Assembly (NCBI GenBank): GCA_009782315.1
Contig: WRJH01000006.1
Coordinates: forward strand, 1 to 33,380
Origin: Alphaproteobacteria bacterium
Lineage (GTDB): Bacteria; Pseudomonadota; Alphaproteobacteria; Rs-D84
Length of the DNA stretch: 33,380 nucleotides
Direction of reading: 5' to 3'
A program made the position numbers and the translations under genes. Of the stretch, positions 42-23,437 are shown one piece after another. Under the pieces are notes generated by a model. That model did not search any database, was not told where the DNA came from, and was given only the letters and a program-made list of their open reading frames with translations. Within the stretch, counting starts at the first letter, position 1. Every line of letters begins with the position of its first letter.

Positions 42-1805
<1,764 letters not shown>

Positions 1806-20012: not shown

Positions 20013-20906
20013 ATGAAGAAACAGCCTTATCTTTTTATAACATCCGAACTGTCAAGGGGGCTTGTGTCGCTTGCGACCTGTATGCAGCGCCGGGGAATTC
20101 CGGTATTCGTCGCGTCCCCCGCCGGATGGGGCGAATCTTCGCGCCTGCGGATACCGCACTTTCGCATCGGAAGACTTCGCATATTCGGCCGCACGTTTCT
20201 GTTTTCCAGCGATGATTTTCGCGCGGGCGTTCGGTCCGAAAACCCGCGGGTTTACGCCATAGACCGCGCCGCGGCCAGGCTTGCCCGCGCAAGAAAACTG
20301 GACATCGCAAACGGGGATGTGGAATTCGGCATCGACCTTTCGGTATTTAATCCGCAAAGCGTGTCGACCCTGCGCCAGACGCGGTTTTTATCCGAATTCA
20401 ACATTGCGCCGCATCAAAAGCTGGTGACGGTCGTCAGTCCGCCGGGGCTGAACCTGGACGCGCTGATACGCGCGATGAAAATCGTGGATTCGTCCGACCT
20501 GGTCGTCGCGATTTTCGGGATAAGCGACAAATCCGTCGCCGCGCGCCTGGTCGGAAAAATAGAAAAATCCGGCCGTCATATAATATGCACCAGTCCGGAT
20601 TCGGACGCGGCGACCGTCCTGCGCTCTTCCTATGCCGTTTTGTCGCTGGGCGCGGCCGACCCGGCGCTGATGATGGCCGCGCTGGCCGTCGGCCGGCCCG
20701 CGATATGGTCCGAAAACGAATGCGGCATAAATCCTAACATAGCGCTGGAATCCGCCGCATCCCCTGAAAGTATCGCCGCCGCGCTGGATGTGGCGCTGGC
20801 GCTGAACGCGTCGGAACGCGAAAAAATCGGACGGCGCAATACGGCCGCGGCAAGCGAATTCGACGTGGATAGCGCGATACGAAAACTGGTCGGCGCGGGC
20901 TGTTAA
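20013..20906 (+). CDS. Glycosyltransferase-like protein (GT-B C-terminal-half features)
   Basis: LVTVVSPPGLNLDALIRAMKIV...DLVVAIFGI...SYAVLSLGAADPALMMAALAVGRPAIWSENECGINPN. Confidence 0.4.
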   Translation: MKKQPYLFITSELSRGLVSLATCMQRRGIPVFVASPAGWGESSRLRIPHFRIGRLRIFGRTFLFSSDDFRAGVRSENPRVYAIDRAAARLARARKLDIANGDVEFGIDLSVFNPQSVSTLRQTRFLSEFNIAPHQKLVTVVSPPGLNLDALIRAMKIVDSSDLVVAIFGISDKSVAARLVGKIEKSGRHIICTSPDSDAATVLRSSYAVLSLGAADPALMMAALAVGRPAIWSENECGINPNIALESAASPESIAAALDVALALNASEREKIGRRNTAAASEFDVDSAIRKLVGAGC

Positions 20907-20935: not shown

Positions 20936-21619
20936 ATGAACAAGACCGTTTTATTTTGGTTGGCTTTTGGCGCCTCTGTCCTGGCCGCCATATACCTTAT
21001 TGTGCGAATTTCCATGACCGGCGGCGGCGCCGTCACGGCGGTTTCGCTGGACGCCGGCGCGGGGCCGCTTTCGGCGCGCGATATTTCGACCGCGATAAAC
21101 ATCAGCGGCGGCCGGTCTTTGCATTCCGCGGATACGGACCGGATTTTTTCGGAAATATCGGGAATTCCTGCGGTCCGCTTTGTATCCGTCCGGAAAATCC
21201 CGTCCGGAAAATTGGCAATCGCCGTGCGCCAGCGCGAAGTCGTTGCCGTCTGGACCGACGGGGCAAAGTTTTACCCGCTTGCCGCCGACGGACGCCGGCT
21301 TGACAATGCAATTGCCGACGCGCCCGCTGGGACCTTGGTGTTTTCCGGAAAACTGCCCGACGATATATCGGCTGTCGTCCGTACTGTAAAAGGCATCCCG
21401 GGACTTTCCGGGTTTTTGCGGCGCGTGGAATGGACCGACGGCCGCAGATGGAATCTGTACACCAATTCCGGGATTAAAATCATGCTGCCGGAATCGGACA
21501 TGGCGGCCGCGCTGAAACGTCTGGTCATTCTGCACAATCAAAACCGGATACTGGACCGCGGAATATCCGTGCTGGACATGCGGGATATGGAAAGAACATT
21601 GGTAAAAATAAAAAACTGA
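20936..21619 (+). CDS. ftsQ: Cell division protein FtsQ
   Basis: Single N-terminal TM, POTRA-like region with VSVRKIPSGKLAIAVRQREVVAVW, then ILDRGISVLDMRDMERTLVKI; directly upstream of ftsA. Confidence 0.8.
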   Translation: MNKTVLFWLAFGASVLAAIYLIVRISMTGGGAVTAVSLDAGAGPLSARDISTAINISGGRSLHSADTDRIFSEISGIPAVRFVSVRKIPSGKLAIAVRQREVVAVWTDGAKFYPLAADGRRLDNAIADAPAGTLVFSGKLPDDISAVVRTVKGIPGLSGFLRRVEWTDGRRWNLYTNSGIKIMLPESDMAAALKRLVILHNQNRILDRGISVLDMRDMERTLVKIKN

Positions 21620-21652: not shown

Positions 21653-23437
21653 ATGAACCTATTAGACTCATCTTATCTGTGCCTTGATATCGGAACTTCC
21701 GGGGTTTCCGGAATGGCGGTCCGGATATCGGGCGGACGGCTGTCGTCGCAACAGACCGCCTCGTTCGAATCCAGCGATATAACAAAGGCCATAAAAAAAA
21801 CCGTGGATATTTTGGAACAATCCATGGGCGTTCGGTTCGATTCCGCATTTGTGACCGGAAATTTCGGCGCAATCGATTATAAAATCATACCTATCAGAAA
21901 AGATTGGGCCAGAGAGCGCAGGATAACAAGTTCGGACATTTCATCCGCGATTATGGACGCGCCCGAAATACGGGGCGGTGCGTCCGTTCTTCATTTGATT
22001 CCGCTGCGGTACGATTTAGAGGATTTTCCAAACATATCGACGCCGGTCGGCCAGGTGTCGAAAAGTCTGTCCGCGATTTTTTGCGCCGTATCGGCGGATA
22101 CGGACGGCATAACGCGCGCGCGCGAACACCTGCGCGCGGCGCACATCAGACCGCGGGAATATTTTGACACGTCCTTTCTTTTGGCCCAGACCGTGCGGCC
22201 GGCCAAAGAATCGTCGTTGTTTATCGATTTGGGCGCGTCGCATACGGCGGTGTCGCTTTGGACAATCCGCGGCCCGATGCTTTTGAAACGGATTCCCGCC
22301 GGCCAGCACGCGGTTACCGACGCCGTCGCCGGCGGACTGGGCCTGCAATGGGGCGCGGCCGAAAAAATAAAGCGCGACAACATATCGCTGGACAGCGGGG
22401 ACAGGGACCGCTTCACGCCCGCATGCGAAAGCGACCAGCACGATTTCACCCGCGCGGATGTCAACGATTTGGCCTTGCCGGCGCTGTATGAAATATTGCA
22501 ACAGGCGGCCGATTTATCCAAGGCATCGCGCGCGAAATATAATCCGACAAAAATATATCTGACCGGGGGCGGCGCGGACATTCCGGGAATGACGGGCGCC
22601 GCGCAAAACATATTCGGGGCGGATGCGGAAATTCCGGGTCCGGGGGCGGCGGCCGCATCATGCGCCGCGTACGTCTGGTCGCGGTATGCGCCCCGCGCCG
22701 CCACAATAGTAATGCGGAAAAAAAGGCGCGGCTTCATCCTGACCGGCATTGCGGGCGGAGTGAGAAAACTGTTCCGGGGACGCAAAAAACAAAAAGCGAT
22801 TCCGATTATGCCCAGCACCCTGGCGTTCAACATGCGCGACATGGCGACGTACGCGCGGTTTCGTTCGGGCGGAATTTCAATGATTCATGTCGACATAATG
22901 GACGGGCTGTACACTTCCGAAATGGCGGGCGGACTGGATGAATTAAAATTCATACGAAAACATACGGACGCCCATCTGCATGTTCACCTGATGACCCAAA
23001 ACCCGGAAACCTGGGCCGCCGCCGCAATGGAATCCGGCGCCGATACGATAATTGTTTCGACCGGAACATACGGCGTCCGCGCCGCGATTGCAAAAATAAA
23101 GTCATGCGGAAAACGCGCAGGGATTGCAATCGGCCCGGACAGTCCGCTTGGGATATTAAAACCCATACTGCGCGAAATCGACGAAGTGCTGGTAATGTCG
23201 GTCGCGCCGGGCAAAGGCGGCCAGAAATTTTTACCGGGCGCCGCGACACGCATAGCGGCGCTGGTCGCGGCGCGAAAAACGCATAAATTGAATTTCAAGA
23301 TTTCCGTGGACGGCGGAATCAATCCGGACACCGCGAAAGAATGCTGGGCGGCGGGCGCGGACGCGTTAGTGTCCGGCAATTTTCTGGCAAAGGCGGCCGA
23401 CTTTCCCGCCGCGGTCCAGGAATTAATCCTGCGTTAA
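21653..23437 (+). CDS. FtsA - ribulose-5-phosphate 3-epimerase fusion (FtsA about residues 1-382, Rpe about 383-594)
   Basis: FtsA motifs LCLDIGTSGVSG, SLFIDLGASHT, IYLTGGGADIPGM and amphipathic FILTGIAGGVRKLFRGR; then Rpe motifs IMPSTLAFNM, MIHVDIMDGLY, HVHLMTQNP, VLVMSVAPGKGGQKF, ISVDGGIN, ADALVSGN; one uninterrupted frame. Confidence 0.93.
   Translation: MNLLDSSYLCLDIGTSGVSGMAVRISGGRLSSQQTASFESSDITKAIKKTVDILEQSMGVRFDSAFVTGNFGAIDYKIIPIRKDWARERRITSSDISSAIMDAPEIRGGASVLHLIPLRYDLEDFPNISTPVGQVSKSLSAIFCAVSADTDGITRAREHLRAAHIRPREYFDTSFLLAQTVRPAKESSLFIDLGASHTAVSLWTIRGPMLLKRIPAGQHAVTDAVAGGLGLQWGAAEKIKRDNISLDSGDRDRFTPACESDQHDFTRADVNDLALPALYEILQQAADLSKASRAKYNPTKIYLTGGGADIPGMTGAAQNIFGADAEIPGPGAAAASCAAYVWSRYAPRAATIVMRKKRRGFILTGIAGGVRKLFRGRKKQKAIPIMPSTLAFNMRDMATYARFRSGGISMIHVDIMDGLYTSEMAGGLDELKFIRKHTDAHLHVHLMTQNPETWAAAAMESGADTIIVSTGTYGVRAAIAKIKSCGKRAGIAIGPDSPLGILKPILREIDEVLVMSVAPGKGGQKFLPGAATRIAALVAARKTHKLNFKISVDGGINPDTAKECWAAGADALVSGNFLAKAADFPAAVQELILR

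Follow-up and report, generated by a model that had tools for sequence, protein, structure and literature searches.

FtsA is usually viewed as the membrane anchor of FtsZ, the division protein of nearly all bacteria, and a locus in which ftsA runs in frame into the gene for ribulose-5-phosphate 3-epimerase (Rpe) raises the question of whether such a protein is genuine and what it does in the cells that carry it. The gene lies in the 33,380-nucleotide stretch of contig WRJH01000006.1 that was analysed, here called the window, from an alphaproteobacterial genome of 0.81 Mb that is 88% complete (Table 1). A sequence-only reading had described one uninterrupted frame of 594 codons with FtsA followed by a full-length Rpe, and both points hold: translation gives 594 residues without an internal stop, and SHS2_FTSA (27.1 bits), FtsA (34.6 bits) and Ribul_P_3_epim (148.2 bits) match one chain in this order, all above their curated Pfam cut-offs, in agreement with a two-domain AlphaFold2 model. 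Against the NCBIfam equivalog TIGR01174 the FtsA half scores 58.7 bits, below the cut-off of 175.85, and the best score in the family is 85.7 bits (genome G127); judged from its sequence, this half is a divergent FtsA. A PilM-type identity was rejected, with 40.2 bits against 67.3 for FtsA (PDB), 17 against 58.7 bits (NCBIfam), and FtsA placed first by Foldseek. The Rpe half passes PF00834 (148.2 bits, cut-off 21.1) and NF004076 (182, cut-off 165) and does not reach the TIGR01163 equivalog (160 against a cut-off of 212.6).

Table 1. Parts of the ftsA-rpe gene and its upstream neighbour, in window positions.
Feature	Position	Strand	Residues and basis
ftsA-rpe fusion CDS	21653..23437	+	594 codons plus stop; translation, family matches, family-wide conservation
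FtsA-like domain	21653..22687	+	residues 1-345, with the SHS2/1C subdomain at about 88-144
ATP phosphate-1 motif CLDIGTSGV	21680..21706	+	residues 10-18; D12 and G14 in 86/86
Basic amphipathic linker	22688..22798	+	residues 346-382; putative counterpart of the FtsA C-terminal membrane helix
Rpe TIM-barrel domain	22799..23434	+	residues 383-594
Rpe motif HVDIMD	22886..22903	+	H412, D414 and M416 invariant
Rpe motif HLM	22985..22993	+	H445 and M447 invariant
Rpe motif DGG	23309..23317	+	D553, catalytic/metal position, invariant
ftsQ	20936..21619	+	Pfam match; directly upstream of ftsA-rpe

The AlphaFold2 model draws on 22 family members and reaches a mean pLDDT of 87.5, with residues 375-382 as the sole stretch below 50; from N- to C-terminus it begins with an FtsA fold, continues through a long helix (332-373) and closes with a TIM barrel. 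Its best Foldseek matches in the PDB are FtsA (3wt0, 1e4g and 7q6f; E 1e-22 to 1e-23) and then the Rpe 2fli, with which the Rpe half shares 37% identity at an rmsd of 1.5 A and a TM of 0.92 by target length. Despite the high pLDDT, pTM is 0.60, and no inter-domain contact is predicted with confidence.

The fusion is genuine and family-wide, and not an artefact. The search covered 202 genomes of the order, 184 of them from family Rs-D84 (f1), which comprises Candidatus Enterousia and relatives and corresponds to Rs-D84 in GTDB at both order and family rank (PMC12306168), and 18 from sister families. A match to FtsA-Rpe is present in 177 of the 184, which answers the earlier suggestion to look for the two-domain architecture in related genomes, and at least 150 matches from at least 149 genomes (the window's own included) cover residues 1 or 2 to 591 or beyond in a single stop-free frame. 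No stop lies near position 22799, and the frame is full length in at least 148 other genomes. A GTDB scan returned 80 loci from many independent projects, with the guts of termites, chickens, horses, ruminants and mice among their sources; one of these loci lies on the chromosome of Candidatus Enterousia intestinigallinarum (OX097180.1), a single contig of 1,001,484 bases. An assembly chimera or a frameshift is ruled out by the full-length open-frame matches together with this single-contig chromosome. Outside family Rs-D84, no fusion appeared among the matches listed for 388 genomes drawn across Alphaproteobacteria. No description of an FtsA-Rpe fusion was found in the open-access literature searched, and as far as that literature shows the fusion is undescribed, as had been supposed; an earlier report elsewhere is possible.

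Immediately before the gene, ftsQ is present at 80/80 related loci and adjoins ftsA-rpe in 74 of the 76 testable ones. Upstream of ftsQ, the window carries a 297-aa frame (20013-20906, + strand) that neither Pfam nor NCBIfam recognises; by eye it resembles a glycosyltransferase, and tblastn found it in only 3/80 related loci. At the edge of the window, positions 42-1805 (- strand) encode a predicted 587-aa surface protein, cysteine-rich and repeat-like, with an N-terminal (TH)n run.

An alignment of 86 distinct proteins, 589-597 aa in length and with the OX097180.1 protein among them, indicates that both halves are under constraint. The metal-ligand and catalytic positions of Rpe, which had looked retained in the single protein, are so throughout, with H412, D414, M416, H445, M447 and D553 each present in 86/86. 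The replacement of the FHxE loop is a trait of the whole family (S469 and T472, 86/86), and the turnover of Rpe may differ with the altered loop; the exchange of the late GS for GN stands for the window protein and is rare among homologues (4/86). In the FtsA half, the ATP positions D12, G14, D192, G305 and G306 are found in 86/86, G194 in 85/86 and G307 in 84/86. Mean pairwise identity across the 86 proteins is 72% for Rpe, 53% for FtsA and 32% for the linker. The basic amphipathic segment noted ahead of Rpe is real, forming a linker of 36-40 residues with a net charge of +6 to +14 in all 86 homologues; this FtsA-type segment, a putative membrane helix, is internal in the fusion and not C-terminal. 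An internal start that would release a free Rpe was rejected, as M386 is not conserved and is Leu in 36/86. The column aligned to E. coli R300, the FtsZ-tail arginine, varies in family Rs-D84 (I, H, K, N, R and others). Loss of this arginine was not accepted as proof of lost FtsZ binding, since sister family f2 has FtsZ yet is also without it.

The sequence-only reading remarked that no ftsZ follows ftsA here, which is right and understates the matter, as the searches recovered no FtsZ from the family's 184 genomes. Pfam Tubulin scores above its cut-off in 0/184 family Rs-D84 genomes and in 17/18 sister-family genomes, and the ftsZ model TIGR00065 in 0/13 and in 8/8 others of the order, respectively. 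A profile of sister-family FtsZ that includes a degenerate protein from genome G014 matched nothing in the 184 genomes (best E 0.034, 11 bits), and a HMMER search for FtsZ with all filters off in every frame of OX097180.1 gave a best E of 0.65. As a class control, FtsZ was found in 380/389 Alphaproteobacteria genomes, and five of the nine without it were all five of the Rs-D84 genomes sampled. That FtsZ was missed through incomplete metagenome-assembled genomes is contradicted by its detection in 0/184 genomes and by its absence from the single-contig chromosome. The earlier reading presumed a canonical, FtsZ-tethering FtsA, and its idea of a carbon-metabolism enzyme or sensor placed at the divisome is conjectural; as the family has no detectable FtsZ, its division context is different from, and stranger than, the one supposed. 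No report on ftsZ in Rs-D84 was found in the open-access literature searched, and the paper on Rs-D84 (PMC12306168) is silent on ftsZ and division. The fusion and the loss of FtsZ are one event each on one branch, so that their coincidence is suggestive and carries no statistical weight for a causal connection.

Observations on FtsZ elsewhere concern other branches. Genome G014 (sister family f4) carries a degenerate FtsZ (L190:6519-7745, - strand; TIGR00065, 31.4 bits) that has lost both its GTP-binding loop, GGGTGTG, and its C-terminal IPxF motif, and has no clear FtsA match, as its two TIGR01174 matches look like MreB and DnaK. Genome G012 (f3) has an FtsZ without the usual C-terminal IPxF(L)R tail (L196:9033-11036) and an FtsA without much of subdomain 2B, the region that binds the FtsZ tail (L228:3320-4381), which looks like a loss of the FtsA-FtsZ interface on both sides. 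With these defects in G014 and G012, the system is decaying in several branches of the order. In sister families f2, f3 and f6 (L192, L193, L195, L196), ftsZ stands far from ftsQ-ftsA and beside phage-like genes, which by eye encode head-tail connector, large-terminase-like and tail-like products. In the alphaproteobacterial family f96, the single-contig 1.5 Mb genomes G380 and G455 have no FtsZ match, and 5.4-5.6 Mb genomes under the same genus label do have one.

The sister families point to a likely origin of the fusion. Elsewhere in the order FtsA is encoded on its own, with a length of about 353-430 aa, and in f3, f5 and f6 rpe is the next gene after ftsA, with the stop of ftsA overlapping the start of rpe as TAATG in f6 (G201) and f5 (G017) and as ATGA in f5 (G015); in f2 an ABC-transporter-like gene lies between the two. 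The last residues of FtsA in sister families form a short amphipathic helix (e.g., KVKNWIKEHL), and at this position family Rs-D84 has the basic linker running into Rpe. The simplest origin would be a merger of the translationally coupled neighbours ftsA and rpe in the ancestor of Rs-D84. In a tree of Rpe, the Rs-D84 proteins sit on a long branch whose nearest sister was not resolved, and the case for an origin in place thus rests on gene order. As the separate genes already adjoin in sister families, the origin of the fusion needs no functional coupling. An 891-aa Rpe frame in genome G008 was dismissed as chance read-through upstream of a normal rpe.

Apart from FtsZ, much of the machinery for division and wall synthesis is retained. 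Family Rs-D84 keeps FtsQ, FtsL, FtsI, FtsW, MurG, MreB, RodA and PBP2, and the window's own genome has an FtsW-like gene beside murG, an FtsL/FtsI-like pair, MreB, RodA and PBP2. On OX097180.1 all eight proteins, as well as transketolase, are found at E 7e-21 or better. The fused rpe is the only rpe in most genomes of the family; a second, standalone rpe, which the earlier reading suggested looking for, is usually absent, with genome G170 as the exception. Standalone Rpe-family genes in G170 (L234:5977-6654) and in G005 of family f2 (L235:6510-7172) are the sole extra copies in the sampled genomes, and both are clustered with genes that look like sugar-nucleotide transferases and HAD proteins. 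The window's own genome and most relatives have a transketolase, which fits the published non-oxidative pentose pathway of Rs-D84, which is without transaldolase (PMC12306168). Genome G127, which is 100% complete, has no transketolase match (PF00456), yet its FtsA-Rpe active site is intact.

These observations are probably best explained by a genuine, ancient fusion that yields a membrane-anchored bifunctional protein, a working epimerase joined to an FtsA with an FtsZ-free task in septal wall synthesis. The internal helix would hold the protein at the inner membrane face, and its Rpe half would interconvert ribulose-5-phosphate and xylulose-5-phosphate for transketolase. The FtsA half, freed from tethering FtsZ, would polymerise and switch on the FtsQLB/FtsWI septal synthase; because its FtsA score is low, this division role is deduced from its fold and its place after ftsQ. 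An FtsZ-independent role has a precedent in E. coli, where FtsA is proposed to activate FtsW directly (review PMC10591338). MreB could perhaps act as the spatial cue, a part suggested for it in Chlamydia (PMC7029139) and Wolbachia supergroup J (PMC10591338). The data can be explained without either activity regulating the other. The intact Rpe site of G127 in the absence of a transketolase match counts against this explanation, as do the low FtsA scores and the altered FHxE loop.

Other readings give the fused enzyme or the FtsA half a different part. Rpe enzymes form dimers or hexamers, and the barrel might be a structural part of the division machine, its oligomer cross-linking FtsA at the membrane so that arrays or a ring take the place of the FtsZ scaffold. 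The exact coincidence of the fusion and the absence of FtsZ at family level, the very constant lengths of protein and linker, and the better conservation of the Rpe half than of the FtsA half would all fit. We nevertheless regard this as unlikely, as catalytic residues that never vary speak for selection on catalysis, enzymes tend in any case to be better conserved than FtsA, and adjacency alone accounts for the fusion. The fullest form of the idea, in which the Z-ring is replaced by a ring or patch of FtsA filaments cross-linked, and perhaps metabolically gated, by the fused oligomeric epimerase, is speculative to the same degree; if true, a metabolic enzyme would be the scaffold of a tubulin-free divisome. 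Slightly less credible is a metabolic sensor, in which binding of a pentose phosphate to Rpe would alter FtsA polymerisation and tie division to carbon supply: the residues that bind the ligand do not vary, even in G127 with its missing transketolase match, but the linker is poorly conserved and the model has no confident inter-domain contact.

It is equally improbable that the FtsA half is vestigial and merely anchors Rpe to the membrane, with MreB, RodA and PBP2 running division in the way suggested for Chlamydia and Wolbachia supergroup J. MreB is present, the FtsZ-less Wolbachia J keep the same three proteins (PMC10591338), and the FtsA domain is divergent, its FtsZ-tail arginine column being free to vary; set against this, the ATP motifs are conserved (D12 and D192 86/86, GGG 84-86/86), the full fold and the SHS2 subdomain are kept, ftsQ, ftsL, ftsI and ftsW are retained, and genomes of about 1 Mb seldom keep vestigial genes. 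Least probable is that the Z-ring is an ordinary one, served by a fused FtsA, and that its FtsZ has diverged too far for sequence searches to detect. The missing GGGTGTG loop of the G014 FtsZ does show that extreme divergence occurs in the order, but the profile containing that very protein matches nothing in Rs-D84, and on the single-contig chromosome FtsZ gets no better than E 0.65, where queries for wall, division and shape proteins reach E 7e-21 or better.

Compared with known systems, the protein that we favour as a bifunctional epimerase and FtsA shares with FtsA (TIGR01174; PF14450 and PF02491) the actin-like fold with SHS2/1C, the ATP motifs, the place after ftsQ and a basic amphipathic segment, putatively the membrane helix, after the core, and differs in being very divergent (58.7 against 175.85 bits) and shortened, with that segment internal, no detectable FtsZ partner and Rpe attached. 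With Rpe (PF00834; NF004076; 2fli) it shares the complete TIM barrel and all metal and catalytic residues, whereas here the enzyme is the C-terminal domain of an FtsA of putative membrane type, has its FHxE loop replaced and falls below the TIGR01163 cut-off. Division without FtsZ is known from Planctomycetes, Chlamydiae and Ureaplasma (PMC7029139) and from Wolbachia supergroup J (PMC10591338). Chlamydiae and Planctomycetes have in common with Rs-D84 the lack of FtsZ and the retention of FtsQ, FtsI, FtsW and MreB wall-synthesis genes. In the PVC groups, however, ftsA has generally gone as well, bar a few cases (PMC12283558), and pathogenic Chlamydia is among those that discarded it (PMC7029139), whereas Rs-D84 belongs to the Pseudomonadota and not to the PVC superphylum and keeps FtsA family-wide, fused to an enzyme. 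Wolbachia supergroup J is likewise an alphaproteobacterial case of FtsZ loss with MreB, RodA and PBP2 kept (PMC10591338), but it has lost almost all essential divisome genes, whereas Rs-D84 keeps FtsQ, FtsL, FtsI, FtsW and FtsA and its loss of FtsZ spans a whole family of gut bacteria. A whole FtsZ-less family with an enzyme-fused FtsA was not found in the open-access literature searched, though an earlier report elsewhere is possible.

The fusion would be a clear example of overlapping neighbours merging in reduced genomes, and Rs-D84 brings to the Pseudomonadota an instance of FtsZ loss that extends across a family. With more than 180 sequenced species, Rs-D84 has no detectable FtsZ, has kept FtsA and the septal synthase, and has fused that FtsA to an enzyme of carbon metabolism, thereby setting apart, in nature, what FtsA does with FtsZ from what it does without it. 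The fusion makes the organisation of FtsZ-free division testable with one protein, and this gut family of tiny genomes offers a new route to asking how bacteria divide without FtsZ.
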